NCBI GenBank assembly: GCA_913049915.1
Contig: CAJWZC010000030.1
Coordinates: 1 to 39,315 of the forward strand
Length of the DNA stretch: 39,315 nt
Direction of reading: 5' to 3'
Origin: an uncultured Colwellia sp.
Lineage (GTDB): Bacteria; Pseudomonadota; Gammaproteobacteria; Enterobacterales; Alteromonadaceae
The position numbers and the translations under genes were made by a program. Within the stretch, counting starts at the first letter, position 1. The number at the start of each line of letters is the position of its first letter. Positions 12,688-31,923 of the stretch are shown here, piece after piece. Below the pieces are notes generated by a model. It was not told where the DNA came from. It saw only the letters and a list, made by a program, of their open reading frames with translations, and ran no database searches.

Positions 12688-13722
12688 TTATTTGGCGTTA
12701 GCAGTAGAGTCTCTTTCAATAACTTCAAAATCAAGGACATTACGAAATTCTCGGCTGTTTGCGTTAGCTAAATCAGAAAATTTACCCGAGGAAATAATAT
12801 CAACAGCTAACTCGGCCATTTGCACAATGGGCTGCCTTACCGTGGTTAAATTTGGATACACAGTAATAGCCAAATGACCATCATCAAAGCCGGCAATAGA
12901 TAAATCCTCAGGTACTGAAAGTCGAAACATATGAGCCACAGACAATACCGCTGCTGCCATATCGTCATTGGCAGCAAAGATGGCGGTCGGTTTATCCTCA
13001 AGCGATAACATTTTCTTAGCGGCAACTAAACCTGATTCATAAGTAAATAAACCTTGTTCAATATACTCGGGGGGTACGTTAATTTGGTTTGAACGCAAAG
13101 CATCAAGATAGCCCTGATAACGTAAACGGCTGACCCCTTGGTTTGGATTACCAATAATATGACCTATCTTGCTATGGCCTTGTTTAATTAACATCTCAGT
13201 CAGTTCAAAACTGGCCTGATAATCGTCCATACAAATATAAGGTGCTAGATTTAATTGGGTCTCTGGTGCAATACGGACAAAACAAACGTTCGCTTTTTGC
13301 AATGTGGCGAGTAAGATAGGATCATCACAAGTGGGTGGCAACAAAATCAAACCATCGACTTGGGTAACCTCAATTAACTCTTGCACCGATGCGATAGACT
13401 TATCTATATCTTCATCAATTTGATCAACCACTAAATGATGACCCGTTGAACGACAACTTTTTAAACCACGCAGTAGAAACTTACTCACATAAGAAGTATC
13501 TATATCAACGTAAAGTAAACCAATTAGAAACGATTTATTACTCGCTAATCGTCGCGCAGCAACATTTGGACGGTAATTAAGCTCCTTTACAGCTTTCATC
13601 ACTAACAAGCGTTTAGCGTCACTTACTTTACTGTCTTGATTAAGCACACGAGAAACCGTCATGCTAGAAACGCCAGCCTTTTCAGCCACATCTTGTATAC
13701 GTGCTCGCTTGGGAGTTGTCAT
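12688..13722 (-). CDS. LacI-family transcriptional regulator, probably of xylose use
   Basis: 344-residue LacI/GalR repressor. The N-terminal helix-turn-helix (IQDVAEKAGVSSMTVSRVL, residues ~8-26) and hinge segment YRPNVAARRLAS are canonical, followed by a periplasmic-binding-protein-like effector domain. It lies convergent to the xyl cluster. A candidate autoregulatory half-palindrome lies upstream at 13781-13794 and a perfect operator at 3378-3391. The likely effector is xylose or a xylose derivative, inferred from context only. A GGA-type ribosome binding site precedes ATG 13722. Confidence 0.92.
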   Translation of the reverse strand: MTTPKRARIQDVAEKAGVSSMTVSRVLNQDSKVSDAKRLLVMKAVKELNYRPNVAARRLASNKSFLIGLLYVDIDTSYVSKFLLRGLKSCRSTGHHLVVDQIDEDIDKSIASVQELIEVTQVDGLILLPPTCDDPILLATLQKANVCFVRIAPETQLNLAPYICMDDYQASFELTEMLIKQGHSKIGHIIGNPNQGVSRLRYQGYLDALRSNQINVPPEYIEQGLFTYESGLVAAKKMLSLEDKPTAIFAANDDMAAAVLSVAHMFRLSVPEDLSIAGFDDGHLAITVYPNLTTVRQPIVQMAELAVDIISSGKFSDLANANSREFRNVLDFEVIERDSTANAK

Positions 13723-15403: not shown

Positions 15404-16336
15404 CTAATAAATGGTCTCTTGGTATTGATGTAGAAAATCCTTCATCTTCGAAGCGCGTTTTGTGTGAAACATGCGCACACCCGCTTCAATCAACTTGTCC
15501 CAATCCTCGGCCTTACCATCGGCATGGGTTTCAACCAGTAGTCCTTGACTCGTGGCATATTGGATCAGTTCCAGGGTTTTGTGGTGCGCGGGATCAGACT
15601 TTTTTATGTTGATCTGAATAGTGAGCGGATCGAACCGCGCCTTAATATCGTTTATCTGCTGCTTGCTGGAAACCTTGAACATTAACAGGCTCCTAGCATA
15701 TGGGACACCATCAGCCTTGTATTGGGCGAACAAATCGGACTGCTGGTAAGGCACCCGAAAGATGATCCCCTCCAGCGCATCATGTTGGGTGACCAGCCCC
15801 ATGATCGCTGTAAAATGTTTACTGACGCCTGGTTTCAAGTCGGCCTTGAAAACCGTTTTGCCCTTACCCTGTTGAAGAAACTGAGCCAGGGTGGCGACAC
15901 GCTCATTGGAGACACTACCATCGCGATACCTTTTATGAAGCTGTTGCAGTTCTTCAAGGGTCATGTTGCTGGCTTGCCCTGTTCCGGTGGTTTCACGGTC
16001 GATAGTCGGGTCATGAATCATAACGAAATGACCATCTTTTGTGCGCTGAATATCAGTTTCGTAAAGATCAATGCCCTTGCTTTGGCTGTTCTGGATGTTG
16101 GCGAGTGAGTTTTCTGGAGCTTGGTCGACCTTGTCGCTCTCATAGCCACCTCGATGCGCTGCGACCAACATGGTTTTGGAAGAAGCTGTACGCATCTGTT
16201 TGAGGGCGCTAGAACCCTGCTCGGTTGCCATTTGCACAGCGGATGTCGGCGTCTGGTCGACCCTAACGGCTGAGGATATGCATCCAGATAGGCTGACCAA
16301 TATGGCTAGGATGGTTGTGAATGTGATTGCTTTCAT
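15404..16336 (-). CDS. glycerophosphodiester phosphodiesterase lipoprotein
   Basis: 310-residue GDPD-domain protein. The N-terminus is a lipoprotein signal (lipobox LSGC), so it is likely membrane-anchored in the periplasm or outer membrane. Catalytic-type motifs are AAHRGG, APENSLANI, the YETDIQ metal ligands and VMIHDPTIDRETTGTG. The family hydrolyses glycerophosphodiesters and some other phosphodiesters with a divalent metal. ATG 16336 is preferred over an in-frame ATG 39 bases upstream because GGAGAAACG precedes it closely. Base composition is strikingly richer in G+C than the neighbours (hand counts 31/60 and 32/60 in two lines against 22/60 in the adjacent sulfatase), suggesting acquisition from another genome. 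Confidence 0.9.
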   Translation of the reverse strand: MKAITFTTILAILVSLSGCISSAVRVDQTPTSAVQMATEQGSSALKQMRTASSKTMLVAAHRGGYESDKVDQAPENSLANIQNSQSKGIDLYETDIQRTKDGHFVMIHDPTIDRETTGTGQASNMTLEELQQLHKRYRDGSVSNERVATLAQFLQQGKGKTVFKADLKPGVSKHFTAIMGLVTQHDALEGIIFRVPYQQSDLFAQYKADGVPYARSLLMFKVSSKQQINDIKARFDPLTIQINIKKSDPAHHKTLELIQYATSQGLLVETHADGKAEDWDKLIEAGVRMFHTKRASKMKDFLHQYQETIY

Positions 16337-16409
16337 CGTTTCTCCGCAGTGCAGCCGTAAGTTGTGATTTTTCATGTTAAGTTAATCAACTTATCCGTTT
16401 CAGCTTATT

Positions 16410-17921
16410 TTACAAAAAGGTCATGGTACTAAATTTATTGACAATGCTCTTTCCTCCGCAAGGTCCATGTGGAAAAGCTATGCGCTGACATACCGCTTTT
16501 TCCATCGTAATACCAGAATCGCCTTGCTGTACCATCCATTCACTTAATTTTTGCTGTAAATGTGCAATTTCATCACGAAATTGTACCTTGTTGATTAAGT
16601 TAACTTGCTCTAGAGGATCGTTAATCACATCATATAATTCAAATTCAGGTCGACTAACAAAATCAGCATAATTACTGATCTGTGCATTTTTTTCAGCAAC
16701 GAGTTCACGATGAAACCAAGGACTTGCGGTGATCAAATTTGAAAAACCATTTTCGAATTGCAGGTTATGGATTAATTTAAATTGTTCGCTACGAACAGAC
16801 CGTACAGGATATTCACTGCCTTCTTTAACGTTGTAAGTTGTTTGCACGCCATAAACATATTCTTTATGTTCAGTTTCCTTACCGAGTAAAACGTTTTTAA
16901 AACTTTTGCCATCTAATCCTTCGGGTACCGTGCTATTAACCAAGTCAGTTAGCGTTGGCACGACATCAACATATTCGATCATGGCATCAGTTTTGGTGCC
17001 TGCAGATATTTTATTTGGCCAGCGAATGATGAAAGCTGTTTTCAGGCCAGCATCGTAATTAGACCATTTACCAAAAGGTAAAACAGAGCCTTGTTCGCTG
17101 GTAAAAATAAAAATGGTATCGTCTTTAATACCTAGGTTAGCTAACTCAGTTTCCACTAAGCCAACTTCACGATCTAAATCACTGACTTCGGCTAAATAAT
17201 CAGCCATTAAGCGACGCACTTCTTTAGTATCATTCAAAAAATCAGGTACTTGTAATTCATTTTCTGGATACTTACTTCTATCTCCTCTAGTCCACGGATC
17301 ATGAGGGCTGCTTGAGGCTACGATTAAGAAAAATGGCTGTGAACTATCTCTTTTAATAAATTCACGCGTGGTATCCATACCAAAAGATGTTTCACCATCG
17401 GCTAATCTATTTTGCTTACCTGCCATTTCAAAGGGGAATGATTCAAGCGGAGCTATATGTTTTTTGCCCGCTAAGCCAACTCTATATCCCAAATCCTTAA
17501 AGTAGTGTGCAACGCTTTTCACGCCATCATGCACTCTAGTGTGATTACCATAAGCACCATTACGGACAGGGTAAATACCCGTATAAAGCTGTTGTCTAGT
17601 TACGGCGCACATGGCAGTGGCGGTAAATGAACGGGTAAACATCATGCCTTGTTCAGCAATTTTATCGATATTGGGCGTTTTAGCATTTTTAGGCACATAA
17701 TCAAACTGCTTATGGTAAGCACTAATGTCATACCAGCTCATATCATCGGCAAGCACCAAAACAACATTAGGCTTTTTATCACCTTTAGGAACAGCTGAAT
17801 CTGCTACTTCAACGGTTTGGTTTTGTGCTGACTTATTATTACCGATAGGTTTAATATCTGAGCAGGAAAAAAGTACTAAGCCAAGTAATGTTAGCGTTAA
17901 TGTTGTTGTTATATTTTTCAT
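16410..17921 (-). CDS. S1-family sulfatase lipoprotein with atypical CAVTR motif
   Basis: 503-residue type I (S1) sulfatase with lipobox LFSC (Cys20), so probably an anchored periplasmic or surface protein. Metal-ligand Asp59-Asp60 (LADDMSW) is present. The formylglycine site is CAVTR (Cys105-Arg109) followed by QQLYTG; the usual pattern is C-X-P/A-X-R, so Val107 is unusual. The second metal segment reads TSEQGS where many family members have SDHG. It is a clear paralogue of the sulfatase at 30478-31923, which has CSPTR. It lies in the minus-strand group with the TonB receptor. The substrate is presumably a sulfated xylose polymer. A maturation enzyme is not encoded in the window. Confidence 0.9.
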   Translation of the reverse strand: MKNITTTLTLTLLGLVLFSCSDIKPIGNNKSAQNQTVEVADSAVPKGDKKPNVVLVLADDMSWYDISAYHKQFDYVPKNAKTPNIDKIAEQGMMFTRSFTATAMCAVTRQQLYTGIYPVRNGAYGNHTRVHDGVKSVAHYFKDLGYRVGLAGKKHIAPLESFPFEMAGKQNRLADGETSFGMDTTREFIKRDSSQPFFLIVASSSPHDPWTRGDRSKYPENELQVPDFLNDTKEVRRLMADYLAEVSDLDREVGLVETELANLGIKDDTIFIFTSEQGSVLPFGKWSNYDAGLKTAFIIRWPNKISAGTKTDAMIEYVDVVPTLTDLVNSTVPEGLDGKSFKNVLLGKETEHKEYVYGVQTTYNVKEGSEYPVRSVRSEQFKLIHNLQFENGFSNLITASPWFHRELVAEKNAQISNYADFVSRPEFELYDVINDPLEQVNLINKVQFRDEIAHLQQKLSEWMVQQGDSGITMEKAVCQRIAFPHGPCGGKSIVNKFSTMTFL

Positions 17922-17986: not shown

Positions 17987-19258
17987 TTAATCACGTAAAG
18001 CAAGCTCATGACGAACGGCTAGACCTAGTGCATAATATGCTCCAGATTTAACATTAACGCCTATTTTGGTCAGTTGCGGCCCGCAAGAAAGATCCCATAC
18101 TTTTTGTTCGATCAAACTTAAATGACACCAGTTCAAATTTGACAATCGTTTAGCTTCAATTAACTCAGTCTTTGAACCATCAATATAATGCTTAAACAGG
18201 TGACGAGTATTAGGTTCGATTTGCCTAAGTTTATAAAGGTAAGTATTCGCCATTTGTTGCAGTAAATTACTATCTATAGAGTCACGATAAAAATCATCAC
18301 GACTGATCCCCATCAATGCAGCACTGACTAACCCGCCATGTAGAATGTCATCAGGTTTTGTCTCAACATCAGAGATTTCATCGAAATTCCAAAATAGAAT
18401 TTCCTTTGCTAAATTTAATTTCGGCTCGTTAATACTGTCAGCATTCCTTTTGAAATATTGCAGCTGATCACTGACTATTTTTCGATAACGACTTACTGTC
18501 TGTGGGTTTTGTTCAGCAACTTCATTAGCAAGCACTATATATTGCATAGCGCTAGACATGGTAAGTGCTCGGTTATACGCAATAGGCTGGCCTACTTTTT
18601 TAAGCGGTACTTCCTGTATTCTGGCTAAATCTGGATTATTAGCATGAATAAAAAGTCCTTTACCTTGATCAAACCACAATGGCGAAAGGGCAAACATTTC
18701 GACTGATTCAGTGGCGTCTGATAAAAAGCGTAATGCTATATTTCTATAACTTTCACCATTTGAGCCGACAAGTCCAACTAGCTTGTCTTCCTTAAGTATC
18801 AACCAAGATGCGTAAGCGATGGGTTGTAATATGTTTGCCGTCATTAATATATTCGTAAAGGCAACAGGCTGGTTATTTATACTCCACTTTTTATAAAGAG
18901 AGGGCCATACAGGTAAAACTTTTCCATCAATATAGAGTGTTAATTTTTCATGTCGATCATTTCGCCTGGAAAGCATAAATTCAATGCGTTCTATCATGGT
19001 ATTGAGTAATCGCGGATCACCCGTCACTTGATAAAGACGCCCAAGGCCCATCAAATAATTGGCATAGTTCCAACTAAAGCCACGGCTGTAGTTATCCTTT
19101 ATCAAAGCCGCCTTACTCACTATTTCTAAGTATTTTGTTATTTCACTTTCGCTGGCTAATCCTAAACTTTTCTCCAGTTTATAGTGCGTTTCAGCAAATA
19201 ATGAAAAGCTACTCAGAAAGATAACCAGCTGAATAAAAATTATTATTGATTTGCGCAT
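17987..19258 (-). CDS. secreted helical protein of unknown function
   Basis: 423 residues with a Sec signal peptide (SSFSLFA/ETH, cleavage ~residue 22). I do not recognise the family. The mature part is rich in amphipathic helices and aromatic residues (FSWNYANYLMGLGRLYQ, PVWPSLYKKWS, FWNFDE, HGGLVSAALMGI), reminiscent of (alpha/alpha)-toroid glycan enzymes, but no catalytic pattern is certain. Only two Cys lie near the C-terminus (NWCHLS, DLSCGP). It sits 65 bases upstream of the CAVTR sulfatase and 85 downstream of the TonB receptor, so a role in handling the same polysaccharide is likely. An AAGG ribosome binding site precedes ATG 19258. Confidence 0.7.
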   Translation of the reverse strand: MRKSIIIFIQLVIFLSSFSLFAETHYKLEKSLGLASESEITKYLEIVSKAALIKDNYSRGFSWNYANYLMGLGRLYQVTGDPRLLNTMIERIEFMLSRRNDRHEKLTLYIDGKVLPVWPSLYKKWSINNQPVAFTNILMTANILQPIAYASWLILKEDKLVGLVGSNGESYRNIALRFLSDATESVEMFALSPLWFDQGKGLFIHANNPDLARIQEVPLKKVGQPIAYNRALTMSSAMQYIVLANEVAEQNPQTVSRYRKIVSDQLQYFKRNADSINEPKLNLAKEILFWNFDEISDVETKPDDILHGGLVSAALMGISRDDFYRDSIDSNLLQQMANTYLYKLRQIEPNTRHLFKHYIDGSKTELIEAKRLSNLNWCHLSLIEQKVWDLSCGPQLTKIGVNVKSGAYYALGLAVRHELALRD

Positions 19259-22370: not shown

Positions 22371-22719
22371 ATAATGAATCTAGCACCTTAGCTTCTTATA
22401 GTCAATATGACATTAATGTTTTATATCTAATTATATTAAAAAATTCTAGTGACCATTTATTTGGAGTTAATTCCTCCGCTTCGCGTATATGAGCCGAATC
22501 GAGAGGGCTTCACTTATAGACATAATTATATTAATAAACACTGATCGTTTAAATTTTGAAATTATTTATCACAGCCTGTTGATATAAATTAATACTTCAT
22601 AGTAAACTATTAATTAGTCTATCAGACCATTAGAATTAGTTATTGAGTCACTTAGAGCTCTATGTGTAATATTAAAAAAATACAATTTATTAAGATATAA
22701 TCACCATCACGGAAATATT

Positions 22720-23454
22720 ATGACAGGGAAAAAAATGCCTTTATTAAATAGCAATATCGATAAGGAAGTGCTTTTACCAGATAACTGTATTAAAAATATA
22801 TCTGTTGATAATTTAATATTTTCTATACATGAGGGAGAGCTAAAAATATTATTGGTAAAGTATAAAGAAGGATTAGCTGCTGATAAATGGGGATTAGTAG
22901 GTCACTGGGTAAAAAAAGATGAATCTCTAGAGCAAGCTGCATCTAGGGTTGTAAAAGAAATAACAGGGAGCACCAACTTATATTTAGACCAACTAGGTGC
23001 TTTTGGTGATGTTGAGCGCTACCCACTAAGTCGAATTATTACTATCGCTTATTATTCATTAGTTAGGCATAGTGAAACCCAGCCTGTTCTAAGTAATCAA
23101 ACAACTGAAATCAACTGGTTTACTATTCATAAACTTCCTGAGTTGGTATTTGATCATCAGCAAATTATTGCTGCAGGCTTAGCTCACCTCAAATATAAAG
23201 TCAGGCATGAGCCCATAGGATTTAGTCTATTACCTGAAAAATTCACTTTATTAGAATTGCAGGATATTTACGAAGCCATTTTAAATAAAAAATTAGATAA
23301 GCCTAATTTCAGACGCAAAATTTTGAAAATGAACTTCCTCATTGACTGTGAAGAAAAACAAAAACATGTTGCGCATAGAGCCGCTGGTCTATACCGATTT
23401 GATATTCATGTCTATCAAAAACTTAAAGAGTTTGGTTTTACTTTCGAGTATTAA
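22720..23454 (+). CDS. NUDIX-domain plus winged-helix transcriptional regulator (NrtR-like)
   Basis: 244-residue protein with an N-terminal NUDIX fold (~28-140) and a C-terminal winged-helix segment (~150-244; LPEKFTLLELQDIYEAIL, then RRKILKMNFL), the architecture of NrtR-type regulators. In Bacteroidetes, relatives such as AraR sense pentoses, so a sugar-responsive role is plausible. The NUDIX box (residues 61-83) is degenerate: the REUXEE core reads RVVKEI, losing two catalytic acids, so the domain probably binds ligand without hydrolysis. A GGAAA ribosome binding site precedes the ATG. It is divergent from the TonB receptor and upstream of the GPH symporter and GH43, its likely targets. 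Confidence 0.88.
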   Translation: MTGKKMPLLNSNIDKEVLLPDNCIKNISVDNLIFSIHEGELKILLVKYKEGLAADKWGLVGHWVKKDESLEQAASRVVKEITGSTNLYLDQLGAFGDVERYPLSRIITIAYYSLVRHSETQPVLSNQTTEINWFTIHKLPELVFDHQQIIAAGLAHLKYKVRHEPIGFSLLPEKFTLLELQDIYEAILNKKLDKPNFRRKILKMNFLIDCEEKQKHVAHRAAGLYRFDIHVYQKLKEFGFTFEY

Positions 23455-23627: not shown

Positions 23628-23671
23628 ATTTTTATTGACTCAACATTATGTTATGGTAACAATGACAATAA
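23628..23671 (+). promoter_or_regulatory. promoter and candidate operator for the GPH symporter
   Basis: A perfect -35 TTGACA (23628-23633) is followed after 18 bases by TATGGT (23652-23657). The -10 is covered by a palindrome, TGTTA-TGG-TAACA (23649-23661), whose half-sites match those of the LacI-type operator at 3378 but with a 3-base centre. ATGACAATAA at 23662-23671 is the reverse complement of TTATTGTCAT found upstream of the sulfatase operon (30413-30422). Either could be a site for the NUDIX regulator or the LacI protein. Confidence 0.45.
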
Positions 23672-25269: not shown

Positions 25270-26340
25270 ATGACAGACACAACAATGATTGACTCAATAC
25301 AGCAACATGAAAGTGATGTTGAAGTCGTTCAGGCACAGGATATTCAAAGGGCTAGGATGTTACAATCAGTGAATCCACCGCTGGTAAAACACATGTATAG
25401 TGCCGATCCCTCTGCACATGTATTTGACGGATCACTCTATGTATATTCTTCACATGATATAGAAACCGATGCTGAATTTAATGATAATGGCGAACACTTT
25501 GCAATGCGTGACTACCATGTACTTTCAGTACCTATTGTCGGCGAGGAAGCCATAGACCACGGTCTTGCATTAAAAGTTGAGGACATACCTTGGGCAAAAC
25601 AACAACTTTGGGCGCCTGATGCTGCATACCGCGATGGCAAATATTATTTGTTTTTTCCGGCAAAAGACCATCAGGATATTTTTCGACTCGGGGTAGCGGT
25701 TAGTGAAAGTCCTACCGGTCCATTTATTGCGAATGAAACCGCTATTGAAGAAACGTTTAGTATTGATCCTGCCGTATTTGAAGATCAAGGAGATCATTAC
25801 CTGTATTTTGGTGGGATCTGGGGAGGACAACTGCAATCTTGGGAAAATGGTACGTTCACCGGGGGTGATAATTATCCAAAGGATGATGAACCCGCATTAA
25901 CCGCTAAAATGGCAAGATTAAATGCGGATATGGGATCCTTGGCAGAGCCCGTCCAAGATATTGTAGTTTTAGATGAATTTGGTCAGCCAATATGTTCCGG
26001 TGACACCGATCGTCGATATTTTGAGGGGCCTTGGGTGCACAAGTACAATGATAAATACTACTTTTCTTATTCAACAGGTGATACCCATAAAATAGTTTAT
26101 GCAATTGGCGACTCACCCTATGGTCCATTTACCTACCAGGGAGTGATACTAAAGCCCGTACTCGGTTGGACAACGCACCACTCAATTGTACAATTTCAAG
26201 GTAAATGGTATTTATTTTATCATGATTCGACCTTATCAGAAGGTCAGACACACTTACGATGTGTAAAAATGATTGAGTTGCAGCATGATGAAAATGGTTC
26301 TATAGCAACTATAGATGCATATAATAAAGTTTCTGCTTAA
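25270..26340 (+). CDS. GH43 family glycoside hydrolase, probable intracellular beta-xylosidase
   Basis: 356-residue five-bladed beta-propeller glycosidase of family GH43. The three acidic residues are visible: Asp46 in YSADPSAHVF (base), Asp166 in SIDPAVF (pKa modulator) and Glu252 in YFEGPW (acid). No signal peptide is present; the first ~35 residues are a charged extension. It should act in the cytoplasm on oligosaccharides brought in by the GPH symporter upstream. Beta-xylosidase is the likely activity from context, but alpha-arabinofuranosidase is also found in GH43. The last clear gene before the IS4 element. Confidence 0.92.
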   Translation: MTDTTMIDSIQQHESDVEVVQAQDIQRARMLQSVNPPLVKHMYSADPSAHVFDGSLYVYSSHDIETDAEFNDNGEHFAMRDYHVLSVPIVGEEAIDHGLALKVEDIPWAKQQLWAPDAAYRDGKYYLFFPAKDHQDIFRLGVAVSESPTGPFIANETAIEETFSIDPAVFEDQGDHYLYFGGIWGGQLQSWENGTFTGGDNYPKDDEPALTAKMARLNADMGSLAEPVQDIVVLDEFGQPICSGDTDRRYFEGPWVHKYNDKYYFSYSTGDTHKIVYAIGDSPYGPFTYQGVILKPVLGWTTHHSIVQFQGKWYLFYHDSTLSEGQTHLRCVKMIELQHDENGSIATIDAYNKVSA

Positions 26341-26764
26341 GTGCAAAAATTTTCTCAACAGCCATAGGAAAGAAGGATCTTAGCCGTCTATGCAGGCAAT
26401 TAAACATAAGATGCTTCAGACGCCCTTGGCACCTTCAGTATGACATATCTGACATCTAGCTTTGCTTATCTTTGCAATGTTCTCTATTCTCATAAGGCTC
26501 GTAGCTGATAGCTTAATACGTGGCTTTTGTTCTTTAGGACAATAAGCCACTATTCCAGAAATAACATTCAACCTGCTCTTTATTCAAGCTTAAAGATTGA
26601 TCTGGTAAAACACTCGGAATTCATCTTCGTGTTAAGGCAACTTATTCATTTAGCGACTTTATGATCGTGGTTTAAATGGTTGCTATTGCACTTCTGTAAC
26701 GATTATTTAGATAAAATCCCGTCTAGTAAATTAAACAAAACGCTTTTTATTATTATATGTTATG
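26341..26764. other. spacer between GH43 and the CRP promoter
   Basis: About 420 bases with no intact gene or clear terminator for GH43. It contains a decayed minus-strand coding fragment (26416-26583). The right end becomes very AT-rich just before the CRP-like site. Confidence 0.4.
26416..26583 (-). pseudogene. decayed coding fragment, family not recognised
   Basis: A minus-strand frame open for 55 codons ends at TGA 26416-26418 and includes CPKEQKPRIKLSATSL and a CxxC pair (RCQICHTEG). A second protein-like stretch in another frame overlaps its 5' part, as after a frameshift. No start or ribosome binding site is visible. It may be the C-terminus of an old transposase or zinc-binding protein, but this is weak. 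Confidence 0.2.
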
Positions 26765-26815
26765 TGTGAAATCGCTCACATAACACTCAAGTTTTGCTAA
26801 TATCCCAATTAATAT
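26765..26815 (+). promoter_or_regulatory. consensus CRP site with extended -10 promoter
   Basis: TGTGA-AATCGC-TCACA at 26765-26780 matches the CRP consensus TGTGA-N6-TCACA exactly. An extended -10 element, TGCTAATAT, follows at 26795-26803, giving an expected start near 26810-26814. The CRP centre then lies about 38-41 bases upstream, the class II position. The promoter points right, toward the GH8-like gene, but an IS4 element begins about 25 bases past the start point. Confidence 0.7.
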
Positions 26816-26837
26816 TCTGTGGCTGCTATTAGTGCAG

Positions 26838-28247
26838 CAATGTCATTAACTTAAGGAATTAACACACACGTTTATAATTCATTGGGTACTTATTTGTCTT
26901 GTTTCTACGGTCTTGTCGAGCAAACTTACGATTGGGTCGAATAACACTTAAATTCTTTGATATTTTACTTATCAGCAACTCATATAATTCAAGTTCAGCT
27001 AGTTTCATTGTGAACCTAACAACATTATCTTTGAGCTGATTTATCGCAAAAGTGAAATTGATCTTATAATCATAAAGTCTATTTTTTCTAGGCTTTTTTA
27101 TTTTTCGTTTTGCATCATGGATCGCTGAAGCAGCAAGGTTCTTAGTCAATAGCTTATCGTGTAAATCTTGTAAAACTCCTTCCGTGGAGACACTAGAGAA
27201 ATTCTCAATAGTGAGACGGCTTTTCAATACTTTGAAATCTTCTTCAATCCCCCAACGTTGGTGATACAAATCAGCAAAAAGAGAAGTAGGATATACTTGC
27301 TGATCTGTTAATGATGAAACCAAAACCTCTGACTCACCAGAGAGTAAATCAACTCGCACTAATCTTAAACTTAGTGATCCTGTTGATATTTTATCTTTTC
27401 TGCATCGACGAAAAGACTTTTCAACACAAGGAAAAGCAACAATCTCGCTATATTTTCCACTTTTTAAGAAGGCTTTAACAACATTAGAGCTTTTAACAAT
27501 ACGCATGCAGAAATCAATGTTTTTCAACATATGATATTTATAAAACCAAACGGTAGGATAGCCTCTGTCATAAACCACTAAGTCACCTGCTTGGGTTTTA
27601 TTTAGATGTTTCAGTGCCATTTCGCGCTCACCTGTTGAATATCTATCTACCTGTAAATCTAACGTAATATTATTTTTAACGTCATATAATTGAGAAAGTC
27701 GAACACAAGGTCTTGGCGTAAGTGAATGAGCTTTACAAAAGTGTTCAAGCAGTTCGTCAGAAACAGGGAGTTGCGTGACAGAGCCATCAACAGCTAACAG
27801 TCGATGACCTTGCCATTTATTAATGTTTGCAACCTCATAAAATTTATCGACCAAATCATCGTTTAGCTCAACAAATGCCTGATGAGATAATTTCATTCTC
27901 GCTTTACAAAAAGCAGCAGTGCTAACTGAAGTTGTTGATAAGTAGCTATCATCGATAACATTGAAAAAACGAATGAGCTCTGTCTGAATTGAACCGTTAA
28001 GGGCATTCAACATAAAACTAATTAAACGTGGGAAAGTAAGTGTTCGATTTCGAGTAAAATAGGCTGGTTTATTACGGTGATTTTCTAAAAACTCAGTTGA
28101 ATGAATTTTGTTGGTTAATTTTCGTACTATTTGAATTGAATACTGAACAGCTCATTGGTTAATTCTCTATATTTTTAATTCATAGTCAGGTTAGCAACTA
28201 GCCAAACCATTGTAAATACATAATTTAACCTTAAGTTAATGACATTG
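26838..28247 (-). mobile_element. complete IS4-family insertion sequence
   Basis: A 1410-bp element bounded by perfect 19-bp inverted repeats: CAATGTCATTAACTTAAGG at 26838-26856 and its reverse complement at 28229-28247. It is flanked by a 10-bp direct target duplication, ATTAGTGCAG, at 26828-26837 and 28248-28257. One intact transposase gene fills most of it. Perfect ends and duplication indicate a recent insertion. It lies in the control region upstream of the GH8-like gene. The 28014-28228 stretch inside it is the transposase leader and holds no other gene. Confidence 0.93.
26859..28013 (-). CDS. IS4-family DDE transposase
   Basis: 384-residue transposase with the DDE triad recognisable as Asp in LAVDGSVTQLP, Asp in VVYDRGYPT and Glu in the signature YHQRWGIEEDFKVLK (Y-2-R-3-E-6-K), the hallmark of the IS4 family. 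The stop lies two bases inside the left inverted repeat. Length and motifs look intact, so it is probably active. It is oriented opposite to the flanking xylan genes. Confidence 0.95.
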   Translation of the reverse strand: MLNALNGSIQTELIRFFNVIDDSYLSTTSVSTAAFCKARMKLSHQAFVELNDDLVDKFYEVANINKWQGHRLLAVDGSVTQLPVSDELLEHFCKAHSLTPRPCVRLSQLYDVKNNITLDLQVDRYSTGEREMALKHLNKTQAGDLVVYDRGYPTVWFYKYHMLKNIDFCMRIVKSSNVVKAFLKSGKYSEIVAFPCVEKSFRRCRKDKISTGSLSLRLVRVDLLSGESEVLVSSLTDQQVYPTSLFADLYHQRWGIEEDFKVLKSRLTIENFSSVSTEGVLQDLHDKLLTKNLAASAIHDAKRKIKKPRKNRLYDYKINFTFAINQLKDNVVRFTMKLAELELYELLISKISKNLSVIRPNRKFARQDRRNKTNKYPMNYKRVC

Positions 28248-28494
28248 ATTAGTGCAGTTCGGAAACAATTTTGGGAAATACAGCTCAAAATAAATATTGT
28301 CAACCTGACTATTACAGTATAAATTAAATACATAATAAGTTTATATAGATAAAAATGCTTATTATGTTCAATTAGAAATTAGCTTGTATTCCTTTAACCG
28401 GAGATAAAAATTATATTGCACCATTATTATAGTTTGAGTGTTTTAATTAATTGATATCTCTATAAATATTATAAAAATAAATTAAGGCGTTATT
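28248..28494. other. target duplication and leader of the GH8-like gene
   Basis: Starts with the right copy of the IS4 target duplication (28248-28257), then AT-rich DNA with no gene up to the GH8-like start. If the IS is removed in thought, this segment joins the CRP promoter at 26765-26815 and forms a leader of about 260 bases. No replacement promoter is obvious. Confidence 0.4.
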
Positions 28495-30144
28495 ATGCTA
28501 GAACAAAACTCTACCCCCTTCAACGTAAAGAAAATAGCAGGAATGTTACTGCTGTTTAGTTTTTGTAGCGCGAAAGTAGCCAGTGCTGTAGAGCCTATTA
28601 CGTTTTATTCCGAATGTGATTACCAGGGGGATACAGTCGCCTTTGACTTAGGTGAAGACTATCGCAAATCAGACATTTTAAATAATGTGGGTAATAACAC
28701 TATATCTTCAGTGAAGGTCGCTGATGGTTATCAAGTTACTCTGTCTGACGGGTTTGACCATACAGGCCGTACCATTGTTTTAACGACTGATGATTCATGC
28801 CTAGACGATAACATTGTTGATAATAAGAGCATGGATGAACGTATCAGCTCTTTTCAGGTTAGGTATAATGCAGCATATGAAAGCCCTTTTAACACCTTGC
28901 TTGGCCTTGATACTCAAGTAATTAACCAGCGGTTGATTGATGATTGGGCGATAATTACTGATGCATTCCTTGATCGCCATTCAGACGCAGAAGGCGTGAG
29001 TTATGCGAGATGGCTGCAACCGACGACGCCTGATGTTGATGAACCCCCTATGAGTGATTATAAATTCACCTTGGCGCAAATGGGTCATGCCATGAATGTC
29101 TCTGTGCATCTGGATAAGAAGGACGATTTTGATGCCTTGTTTCGTGAAGCGAAGCGTACAATGTACCAATCGGATACATTGTCACCTAATTTTGGTTTGT
29201 ATTCAGCTACGGTGTTTGTAAACAATCCTGGTGATGCGGGTGTAGTCGGTATTTCTTCTACTTACGGTGTAGGTGGTGCACAACATTTTTCAAATCCATT
29301 GGTTTTAGCGGGTAACCGTTGGGGCAATGATGGTGAAATTGATTATCATCAAGCCGTTAGAGACATTTTAGAGCAATTGAATAGCACTGCAAACGGCCAA
29401 AGAAGCTCTATGTTTATCGATACCAAATATGGTTCGAGAATGCCAATGAATTTGAAGTTTGGCCATAGACAGAATACCATGAGCAGCCCGCCTTATTATC
29501 ATGCAGAGCACTATCCGCTTTGGGCATCTCTGTACCAAGACGGTGACAGTCAACGTAATTTGTGGTGTGAACGTGCCGATGACTCCCGCGATACGCTTAC
29601 AAATACATTCGCTCATCCTACAACTGGATTTGTCCCAAATAAAGCACTCTTTGATGGTACCCCTGAACCTGATTGGCCTAATGAAAAAGATGATTCAGCC
29701 TTTGAAACTGACCCACAAAGATTACCTATGACAACCTCAATAGATGCGATTTTTTATCAGAATACTTGGGGCCGCGATTTGAATAACAAGATTTTAACTC
29801 ACTTCTATGATGATGTTAATGACGGCATATCGGGTATTAAAAGGACTGTTTATAGCCATGATGGCGAAACGTTAGTGCTCAGTGGCGGCGCAAAATCAAA
29901 TGATAAGTGGTCTTTATCAGCAATGTTAGCTGTTGCCACACTCAATACTGACTTACCGGATACAGCAGCATCTGAGTTACCACAGAATAAACTTTTTGTT
30001 CAAGATTTATGGGACGTCGATGTAACTTCACAGACTAATCCTTCTTCTTATCATTCTGTTGTTTACATGGTAGGTTTGGTAACAGTCGCAGGGCTTTATA
30101 CGCATTACTTACCTGCGAGTGAAGTGCAGCAACTTTGCCTTTAG
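28495..30144 (+). CDS. secreted betagamma-crystallin plus GH8-like protein, catalytic residues apparently lost
   Basis: 549 residues: signal peptide (cleavage ~31, KVASA/VEP), a betagamma-crystallin-like domain (~35-124; FYSECDYQGDTVAF, SDGFDHTGRTIVL, ERISSFQV), then ~425 residues that resemble family GH8 (alpha/alpha)6-barrel xylanases of the Rex type from remembered family patterns: LAQMGHAMNVSVHLDKKDDF (193-212), NRWGNDGEIDYHQA (274-287), TGFVPNKALFDGTP (377-390), DPQRLPM (406-412). Compared with GH8, the general-acid Glu position falls on Ala194 and the DGE motif reads GGA (260-262), while the base Asp (406) is kept. It may be a xylan-binding pseudoenzyme or have altered chemistry. A terminator follows. 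Confidence 0.65.
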   Translation: MLEQNSTPFNVKKIAGMLLLFSFCSAKVASAVEPITFYSECDYQGDTVAFDLGEDYRKSDILNNVGNNTISSVKVADGYQVTLSDGFDHTGRTIVLTTDDSCLDDNIVDNKSMDERISSFQVRYNAAYESPFNTLLGLDTQVINQRLIDDWAIITDAFLDRHSDAEGVSYARWLQPTTPDVDEPPMSDYKFTLAQMGHAMNVSVHLDKKDDFDALFREAKRTMYQSDTLSPNFGLYSATVFVNNPGDAGVVGISSTYGVGGAQHFSNPLVLAGNRWGNDGEIDYHQAVRDILEQLNSTANGQRSSMFIDTKYGSRMPMNLKFGHRQNTMSSPPYYHAEHYPLWASLYQDGDSQRNLWCERADDSRDTLTNTFAHPTTGFVPNKALFDGTPEPDWPNEKDDSAFETDPQRLPMTTSIDAIFYQNTWGRDLNNKILTHFYDDVNDGISGIKRTVYSHDGETLVLSGGAKSNDKWSLSAMLAVATLNTDLPDTAASELPQNKLFVQDLWDVDVTSQTNPSSYHSVVYMVGLVTVAGLYTHYLPASEVQQLCL

Positions 30145-30187
30145 TCTGCCGATAAGTTATTTGTAGATAGCTGGTATTTAAAGCATC

Positions 30188-30260
30188 GTCACTGCTTCGC
30201 ATCCCTGCGACAGTGACATACTGTACAAAAAAACTTCACAAAAAAGTGAAGTTTTTTTGT
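30188..30260 (+). terminator. tandem hairpins, strong terminator after the GH8-like gene
   Basis: Two stems follow the stop. The first joins GTCACTG (30188-30194) to CAGTGAC (30211-30217) with an inner TCGCA/TGCGA pair. The second pairs 30225-30239 with 30246-30260, ending in GTGAAG followed by seven T residues. The second is a classical intrinsic terminator and is near-symmetric, so it could work in both directions. Confidence 0.85.
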
Positions 30261-30477
30261 TGTAGGTTAAATACCTTACATTTACTGTTCAATAATATTT
30301 CGATAAGAGATACGTTTTCCACTGGATTTACCTAAGGCTTATTATTAAATTGTTTTTGATCCTTAGTCTGTTCTGTATGTAATTTTAAAATATAAGGAAT
30401 AAAACATAACACTTATTGTCATAATGACTATTGTGGTTTATGATGATTTTATATTTAGACACGTTTTACGGGATTGT
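30261..30477. promoter_or_regulatory. leader of the sulfatase-xylanase operon
   Basis: AT-rich spacer before the six-gene operon. It holds an inverted pair CTAAGG/CCTTAG (near 30332 and 30360) and TTATTGTCAT at 30413-30422, whose reverse complement lies before the GPH symporter (23662-23671). The shared 10-mer could be part of a common operator. No clear -35/-10 pair is chosen. Confidence 0.3.
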
Positions 30478-31923
30478 ATGAATTTGTTAGTAAGAATTAC
30501 TCTAATTAGTCTTGCTGTATTGTTTAGCGCTGTTTGCGCTGCACAATCAGAAACTAGTCACAAAAATTTAAAGCAATCACCGCCAAATGTAGTGCTCTTT
30601 CTATCTGATGATACTAACTGGTTCGATATTGAGCCTTACGATCGACTGTACGATTACACCCCTCATAATGCTATTACGCCAAATTTAATGAAATTTGCCC
30701 AACAAGGTATGTTATTCACTTCAGCGTTTACTTCTACGGCATTGTGCTCTCCCACACGTCAACAGCTTTATACGGGTTTGTTTCCGGTACGTAATGGTGC
30801 TTACCCCCAGCATTCAGTTGCTGACAAAGGTACTAAGAGTGTCGTTCATTATTTTAGCGATCTCGGCTACCGCGTTGCTTTAGCCGGTAAAAGGCATATT
30901 GCACCAGCATCGGTTTATCCATTCGAGTTTGTCGGTGAAGATATTAGAGGCACAGAAGGCACAACGACTTTTGGACTCGAAGGCGTTGAAGAATTTATTA
31001 AGCGGGATAAGAATCAACCGTTCTTCTTGATTATTGCTTCAAATAATTCCCACGGTCCCTGGACGCGAGGAGATCGTAGCCTATACGATGCGGATAAATT
31101 GAATATTCCGCCTTTTTTAGTTGATAGCCCTGAATTTCGAAAGAGCATGGTCAATTATTATGCAGAGATAACAGATTTAGATACAGAGTTTGGCTTGGTT
31201 GATGATGTGTTAATACGTAATAAAGTACAAAAAAACACGATTACTATTTTCACAAGTGAGCAAGGCAGCGGTATGCCTTTCGCAAAATTCACCACTTACG
31301 ATGCTGGACTCAAAACTGCCTTTATGGTGAGGTGGCCGGATAAAATAGCAGCGGGAAGTATTACTAACGCTATGGTGCAATATGTTGATGTGGTACCGAC
31401 TTTAATCGAAGCGGCACAAGGCAAAGCACCTAACAATATCGATGGCAAAAGCTTTCTGTCGATTTTGCAAGGCTCACAAAAAGAACACCGCGAATATACC
31501 TATGGTGTGCATACCACAAGAAATTTATTAGCCGGTAATGATTACCCTATCCGCTCAGTACGAAGTAAACGTTATAAACTCATTTTAAATTTAATGCATG
31601 AAAGTGAATTTAACAACCTGACGACGTTAGGTTTAAAGAAAAAGCAAGGCACGCTGTGGGAGTGGCAACAATTAGCAAAAAAAGGCGAACAATGGGCGAG
31701 AGCCAGAGTTGATTTGTATCTACGACGTCCCGCGGTAGAATTTTATGATGTTATTAATGATCCTTTTGAAACTAAAAACTTAGCTGAACAAAAAAAATAC
31801 CAACCAATAATAGAGGAGCATCGGAACGAACTTGCTCGCTGGATGAAACAACAAGGTGATTTAGGCATAAAAACAGAATTGGAAGCATGCCGGCATGCCG
31901 CGAGTTTTAAAGCATGCCCTTAG
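30478..31923 (+). CDS. S1-family sulfatase, secreted
   Basis: 481-residue type I sulfatase with a Sec signal peptide (SAVCA/AQS). It has metal-ligand Asp44-Asp45 (LSDDTNW), the canonical formylglycine motif CSPTR (Cys90-Arg94) followed by QQLYTG, and a TSEQGS segment where SDHG is commoner. It is a close paralogue of the lipoprotein sulfatase at 16410-17921, sharing long stretches such as RQQLYTG and LAGK(K/R)HIAP. The frame opens upstream at 30424, but ATG 30478 gives a proper signal peptide behind GGGA. First gene of the operon; the next sulfatase starts 43 bases on. Confidence 0.92.
   Translation: MNLLVRITLISLAVLFSAVCAAQSETSHKNLKQSPPNVVLFLSDDTNWFDIEPYDRLYDYTPHNAITPNLMKFAQQGMLFTSAFTSTALCSPTRQQLYTGLFPVRNGAYPQHSVADKGTKSVVHYFSDLGYRVALAGKRHIAPASVYPFEFVGEDIRGTEGTTTFGLEGVEEFIKRDKNQPFFLIIASNNSHGPWTRGDRSLYDADKLNIPPFLVDSPEFRKSMVNYYAEITDLDTEFGLVDDVLIRNKVQKNTITIFTSEQGSGMPFAKFTTYDAGLKTAFMVRWPDKIAAGSITNAMVQYVDVVPTLIEAAQGKAPNNIDGKSFLSILQGSQKEHREYTYGVHTTRNLLAGNDYPIRSVRSKRYKLILNLMHESEFNNLTTLGLKKKQGTLWEWQQLAKKGEQWARARVDLYLRRPAVEFYDVINDPFETKNLAEQKKYQPIIEEHRNELARWMKQQGDLGIKTELEACRHAASFKACP

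Follow-up and report, generated by a model that had tools for sequence, protein, structure and literature searches.

A GH8-derived barrel without its catalytic acid in a sulfated-xylan locus of an uncultured Colwellia: a candidate xylan-binding pseudoenzyme

Why would a cluster of sulfated-xylan genes hold a xylanase-like protein whose catalytic acid is missing? The gene that raises this question, termed here GH8L, lies at 28495..30144 (+) in the window, a 39,315-base stretch that forms an entire contig of a draft genome (3.81 Mb, 178 contigs) of an uncultured Colwellia. A sequence-only reading had described its product as a betagamma-crystallin domain fused to a GH8-like barrel, and had offered three explanations: a xylan-binding pseudoenzyme, an enzyme with relocated catalysis, or the founder of a new family. 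The coordinates given for the gene fit a 549-aa open reading frame exactly, and its identity as a GH8-like pseudoenzyme gene is drawn from this frame and from homology.

Domain architecture and active site

GH8L begins with a putative signal-peptide-like N-terminus (residues ~1-33; 28495..28593, +), judged by eye from the translation. This is followed by a betagamma-crystallin domain (residues ~35-126; 28597..28872, +), recognized by structure-sequence matches, and a GH8-like (α/α)6 barrel (residues 123-549 as modelled; 28861..30141, +), delimited by a predicted model. A perfect 15-nt hairpin 3′ of the gene (30225..30260) is a possible terminator, although it is absent from the list of the terminator scan. 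Searches of the protein against NCBIfam, PHROGs and PADLOC gave no match.

The GH8 pattern read in the C-terminal part stands far above chance. In the PDB, phmmer matches the GH8 xylanase 6g00_A (E 1.3e-19, residues 195-542) and Rex8A (6to0_A; E 2.7e-15, span 194/195-542). The GH8 profile search that the sequence-only reading had proposed gave a divided answer: our own profile of 41 GH8 relatives, with the query left out, scored 144 bits over residues 196-545, while Pfam PF01270 (GH8) had no match in GH8L up to E 10 and matched all seven canonical relatives scanned. The 41-row set comprises L001-L008 and later loci, trimmed to the GH8 part (L052, L053 and L099 are later additions outside the 41-row counts); it does not amount to 41 independent tests, because many rows are near-identical. 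The nearest relatives share at most ~27-32% identity with GH8L, whose tree branch (6.56, with seven rows removed beforehand) is too long for placement.

Structure prediction, likewise proposed earlier, returned a GH8-like (α/α)6 barrel for residues 123-549 that resembles Rex and Xyl8 structures, a fold match that is not independent because the input alignment contained GH8 rows. This model is of moderate quality (mean pLDDT 58.6, pTM 0.71), its loops near the active site fall below pLDDT 50, and the full-length model is poor (pLDDT 45.3). L074 was omitted from the alignment behind the second model.

The N-terminal module was also correctly recognized, since residues 35-126 match betagamma-crystallin structures (3hzb_A, E 5.3e-7; protein S 1prr_A, E 1e-6); Pfam Crystall reached E 0.24 only, under its cut-off. 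The domain features YSECDYQG at 38 and two NN/DE-x-I-S-S-type strings, NNTISS at 67 and DERISS at 114, which we take to be betagamma-crystallin motifs. These motifs suggest a calcium-type module that may bind calcium. The earlier description of the module as unusual holds for GH8 among the relatives examined, but not for secreted hydrolases: in related genomes, Pfam finds a crystallin or weak crystallin-like module and CBM6 with GH16 (L013) and with an M12-type peptidase (L100), and phmmer finds a crystallin module beside CBM6 and GH19 (L054). A crystallin module on a secreted hydrolase is thus not unusual as such, and not novel. A galactose-oxidase-like protein (L050, 1-2196, -) bears a crystallin-like module as well.

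At the position of the general acid, GH8L carries Ala194 (29074..29076, +; the place of Glu70 of Rex8A) where all 40 lettered rows have Glu (one gap among 41). The register is secure here, with an alignment that is gap-free from ~181 to 227 across seven rows and from 189 to 230 against L007. The conserved Asp-Gly-Glu is replaced by Gly260-Gly261-Ala262 (29272..29280, +); column 260 is Asp in 41/41 relatives, and column 262 is Glu in 39 and Asp in two. The catalytic base, Asp406 (29710..29712, +), is retained, its column being Asp in 39 and Asn in two of the 41. The sequence-only reading had named all three features, and the alignment offers no intact Glu/Asp pair in their place, only the base being present. 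Also kept are Tyr334 (same residue in 39/41 rows), Arg409 (41/41) and Trp343 of the cleft.

The loss is broader than first noted: much of the acid-side pocket is gone, not the acid alone. Other conserved residues are replaced as well, namely Arg by Thr192, Trp by Ala238, Tyr by His198 and Asp by Ser331, with further losses of Asn at Thr413, Asn at Leu478 and the Arg-Tyr of the C-terminal RYY at Ser517 and Ser518. Residues were mapped onto Rex8A through L007, a bridge close to that enzyme. The counterparts of its Arg68, Glu70, Trp112 and Asp128 are lost, and those of Tyr197, Asp265 and Arg268 (by chain index) are kept. Tyr197 of Rex8A is the counterpart of BhRex Tyr198, and PDB titles name BhRex variants at Y198F, D263 and E70A. 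In TtGH8, the excerpt of PMC6173055 gives Glu73 and Asp281 as acid and base, and that of PMC6661730 places Arg67 of PbRex8 at subsite -1. GH8L keeps 34 of the 74 columns conserved in at least 85% of relatives. Within the acid-side segments 190-201 and 236-262 it keeps 2/17, as against 32/57 elsewhere (Fisher p 0.0017, post hoc, as the segments were picked after inspection of the alignment).

Sulfated-xylan locus and operator-like palindrome

One flank of GH8L holds a GH43, an MFS transporter, a NUDIX/wHTH regulator (22720-23454), a TonB receptor and a sulfatase, and the other holds three sulfatases and a GH10. Further left lie a gene for a LacI-type regulator (12688-13722) and genes for xylulokinase, xylose isomerase, transaldolase, transketolase and aldose epimerase. 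The proposed placement in a sulfated-xylan locus is borne out: GH10, GH43 and four sulfatase genes occur with xylose catabolism, matching the pattern of predicted sulfated-xylan PULs, which combine GH10, GH43 and several sulfatases in the excerpt of PMC6794258.

Several neighbors have features of their own. A 423-aa secreted-looking helical protein (17987-19258, -) has no Pfam or NCBIfam match and nothing better than E 0.75 in the PDB, and may be another unrecognized barrel. The GDPD-like gene at 15404-16375 (-) is likely a recent arrival, with a GC3 of 0.56 and a codon fit of -0.162, where other genes have a GC3 of ~0.25-0.40. The sulfatase at 16410-17921 (-) reads CAVTR where its 51% identical neighbor at 30424 reads CSPTR; the formylglycine motif, we assume, usually has Pro or Ala at the position of this Val. 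For the neighbor, the listed start at 30424 falls within the promoter, and an ATG at ~30478 is the likelier start (30424-30478).

An operator-like palindrome, TTGTCAACCTGACTAT, lies upstream of GH8L (28297..28312, +), in a promoter-like setting with TTGTCA 17 bases before TAAATT. The palindrome was spotted by eye at the promoter of the next sulfatase, where it reads TTGTCATAATGACTAT (30416..30431, +) and TTGTCA stands 17 bases before TATGAT. Locus L069, in a genome of another genus (G460), carries TTGTCATTGTGACTAT at the same place in its sulfatase promoter, and the window and L069 promoters together yielded the strict form TTGTCATNNTGACTAT. The site at 28297 has one mismatch to TTGTCATNNTGACTAT and is situated 198 bases before GH8L. 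A further site with one mismatch lies in the gap that separates the TonB receptor gene from that of the NUDIX/wHTH regulator (22398..22413, -), and a weaker one with two mismatches precedes the MFS transporter gene (23653..23668, -).

Sites with two mismatches or fewer occur in four of 21 intergenic gaps, all four preceding sulfated-xylan genes, transport genes or GH8L, and the other 17 gaps have at least three. Dinucleotide shuffling of the 247 bases before GH8L reached one mismatch 6 times in 20,000. In the own genome, five sites differ from the strict form by at most one base, three of them inside the window (a complete list, counted by hand); among five sites in G460, the sole exact one is the sulfatase promoter. 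The case for co-regulation rests on clustering within the locus, because across the genome a looser pattern is no commoner than its reversed control (30 and 34 matches, respectively). In 28200-30520, promoter-like sites taken together show no enrichment either (11 against a mean of 8.4). Since the palindrome stands in the GH8L promoter as it does at other cluster heads, GH8L is probably co-regulated with the sulfated-xylan cluster. A shared repressor may be involved, most simply the NUDIX/wHTH regulator. Of the two operator-like sites beyond the window, one (L096 ~3808; G000 contig 20, 10307), between frames that resemble an MFS transporter and a TonB receptor by eye, perhaps marks a second locus of the same regulon.

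Binding, altered catalysis or decay

Of the three explanations in the sequence-only reading, the xylan-binding pseudoenzyme draws the strongest support, from GH8 homology and fold, the lost acid side and the shared promoter element. We consider it somewhat more probable than all alternatives together that GH8L is a GH8-derived pseudoenzyme that a sulfated-xylan regulon has taken up as a binder of xylan or xylo-oligosaccharides; context and homology suggest xylan as the ligand. A GH8 xylanase-type barrel would be exported behind a calcium-type betagamma-crystallin module. On its proton-donor side the usual residues are gone (Glu to Ala194, Arg to Thr192, Trp to Ala238, Asp-Gly-Glu to Gly-Gly-Ala), so that hydrolysis of β-xylosidic bonds should no longer occur, while the barrel retains its fold and a portion of its cleft (Tyr334, Trp343, Asp406 and Arg409). 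Set under an operator-type promoter that heads sulfated-xylan genes, GH8L would most likely be a periplasmic or surface binding protein. It may capture xylan or xylo-oligosaccharides, or present them to the GH10, GH43, sulfatases and TonB receptor of the regulon.

Ordinary GH8 hydrolysis should fail because the proton donor, the second conserved Asp, the -1 Arg and the Trp are lost. E70A variants of Rex8A have been crystallized with bound arabinoxylo-oligosaccharides, according to PDB titles, so loss of the acid alone need not abolish binding. Glycan binding by GH8L is nevertheless not assured, since many subsite residues beyond the acid are changed. The barrel has a net charge of -26 (relatives' median -14, n=35), and the GH10 and the sulfatases to the right of GH8L range from neutral to basic (0 to +8). 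These charges would suit a neutral ligand, perhaps one that has already lost its sulfate, better than a heavily sulfated polymer.

An active enzyme with changed chemistry is unlikely, although the pattern of losses gives it some footing. Asp406, Tyr334 and Arg409 would activate water, with protonation of the leaving group coming from elsewhere or from the substrate, or being unneeded. GH1 myrosinases, in which the acid is absent, are a precedent for acid-free chemistry. The base side is kept and the acid side lost, the three retained residues matching 39, 39 and 41 of 41 rows, and decay at random should not leave the base side untouched. However, no aligned carboxylate takes the place of Glu70, and the losses also take in the second conserved Asp (the place of Rex8A Asp128) and two residues close to subsite -1, Arg and Trp; the loops near the site, below pLDDT 50, are too uncertain to place a relocated acid. 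The relocated catalysis proposed earlier retains its base-side residues but gains no candidate replacement acid. A bolder form of this idea, to which we give very little credence, is an acid-independent GH8 that cleaves a particular sulfated or otherwise activated xylan linkage with Asp406, Tyr334 and Arg409 alone; departure of the leaving group would be assisted either by the sulfate that it carries or by a residue in a remodelled loop. If true, it would represent a new catalytic mode among (α/α)6 glycosidases.

GH8L could also bind something other than xylan and serve as an inhibitor-trap, a calcium or matrix protein, or a platform on which partner enzymes assemble. The crystallin-type module, the strong acidity and the many changed subsite residues are consistent with such a role, but homology to xylan-active GH8 enzymes and the xylan context argue against it, and we regard it as doubtful.

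The distribution of the gene bears on whether it is functional at all. No ortholog of GH8L was found in the genomes searched. Whole-protein searches over overlapping genome sets found matches in 5 of 99 genomes of relatives, 20 of 394 of the order, 22 of 395 of the family, 5 of 369 of the class and 4 of 299 of the phylum, each count including the own genome, in which the single match is GH8L itself. Among 39 genomes of the genus nothing matched beyond the window itself, and the one genome of the genus of G460 gave none. Matches outside the barrel are crystallin modules and a few unrelated frames. Six exact 8-residue patterns searched in 84,980 species retrieved eight relatives, all within the 41-row set. 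Plasmids contained no match to GH8L; viral contigs had none with the GH8L protein or A1, and one GH8-like match with A2. A viral contig (L074, 948-4184, +) encodes a 1079-aa apparent structural protein whose GH8-like domain has EGMSYGM.

With the last sulfatase as synteny probe, 96 of 196 family genomes had some match, the best places being in G460, G569, G041 and G009. Among the five stretches compared, only that of G460 is syntenic, sharing the order GH43-sulfatase-sulfatase-GH10-sulfatase at 75-89% identity (GH43 89%, sulfatases 84, 86 and 75%, GH10 81%) on a contig that runs out within GH43. Between GH43 and the first sulfatase, 62 bases of G460 remain unmatched, and in their place the window carries ~4.1 kb (26329-30413) containing an IS4 element and GH8L; no GH8L match occurs anywhere in the G460 genome (85% complete). 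The difference is a gain here or a loss there; one comparison fits both. The IS4-family element (26838..28247; transposase 26859-28013, -) is bounded by perfect inverted ends of 19 nt and flanked by a 10-bp duplication of its target, ATTAGTGCAG (26828-26837 and 28248-28257). These enclose the transposase alone, which rules out the element as the carrier of GH8L; with its own ends and duplication outside the operator, it does not cut the promoter either. A foreign origin by codon use is likewise rejected, since the codon use of GH8L fits its neighbors (0.092 against 0.048 to 0.212, minus one outlier).

A relic, brought in beside an IS element and drifting without function, would explain the absence of GH8L from the sole syntenic locus found, the IS4 element just upstream and the missing orthologs; it is nonetheless improbable given 549 stop-free codons at very high divergence, host-like codon use, the operator-like site of the cluster in the promoter and an IS4 element complete in itself outside that operator. 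An open 549-codon frame at ~27-32% identity with host-like codon use makes selection likelier than a relic, and the protein appears to have been under long selection. The founder of a new family is unsupported, because GH8L is still recognizable as GH8 by sequence and profile and is a single orphan.

Comparison with known systems

As a GH8-derived binder, an acid-less GH8 under an apparent sulfated-xylan operator, GH8L would parallel in nature the E70A variants with which crystallographers trap xylo-oligosaccharides. It offers a clean and cheap test case for the conversion of a xylanase barrel into a dedicated bacterial glycan-binding protein, and bears on how a regulon gains a part, here through a gene that is specific to the lineage and comes with the right operator. 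A caution follows too, as GH8 calls made from homology only can give the label of xylanase to a protein that is no enzyme. Searches of the open-licence literature turned up no GH8 pseudoenzyme.

The GH8 Rex (BhRex, 1wu4) and the endoxylanase TtGH8 (6g00) share the (α/α)6 barrel with GH8L at 20-25% identity over the barrel, together with the base Asp, the Tyr on the water side and the Arg that follows the base. In GH8L, by contrast, the acid Glu is Ala, DGE is GGA, the -1 region lacks its Arg and Trp, and an N-terminal betagamma-crystallin domain is added. The crystallin-bearing hydrolases of L013, L054 and L100 resemble it in carrying a similar single module on an exported protein, but their partners are catalytic domains recognized by Pfam, whereas the partner in GH8L is an eroded GH8.

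At the level of the locus, the marine Bacteroidetes sulfated-xylan PULs described in the excerpt of PMC6794258 share GH10, GH43 and several sulfatases with the window. They belong to a different phylum; in the window, a TonB receptor was found without SusD, and its locus includes a GH8-like pseudoenzyme, whereas PMC6794258 does not contain the term gh8. Pseudo-glycosidases that act as binders are known from other families, including the chitinase-like lectins (GH18, YKL-39) and klotho (GH1), as described in the excerpt of PMC7828330. Like these proteins, GH8L combines a glycosidase fold with the loss of catalytic residues and a proposed role in binding. It differs in belonging to another family, in being bacterial and in lying inside a catabolic regulon, where its binding role is the one we infer here.
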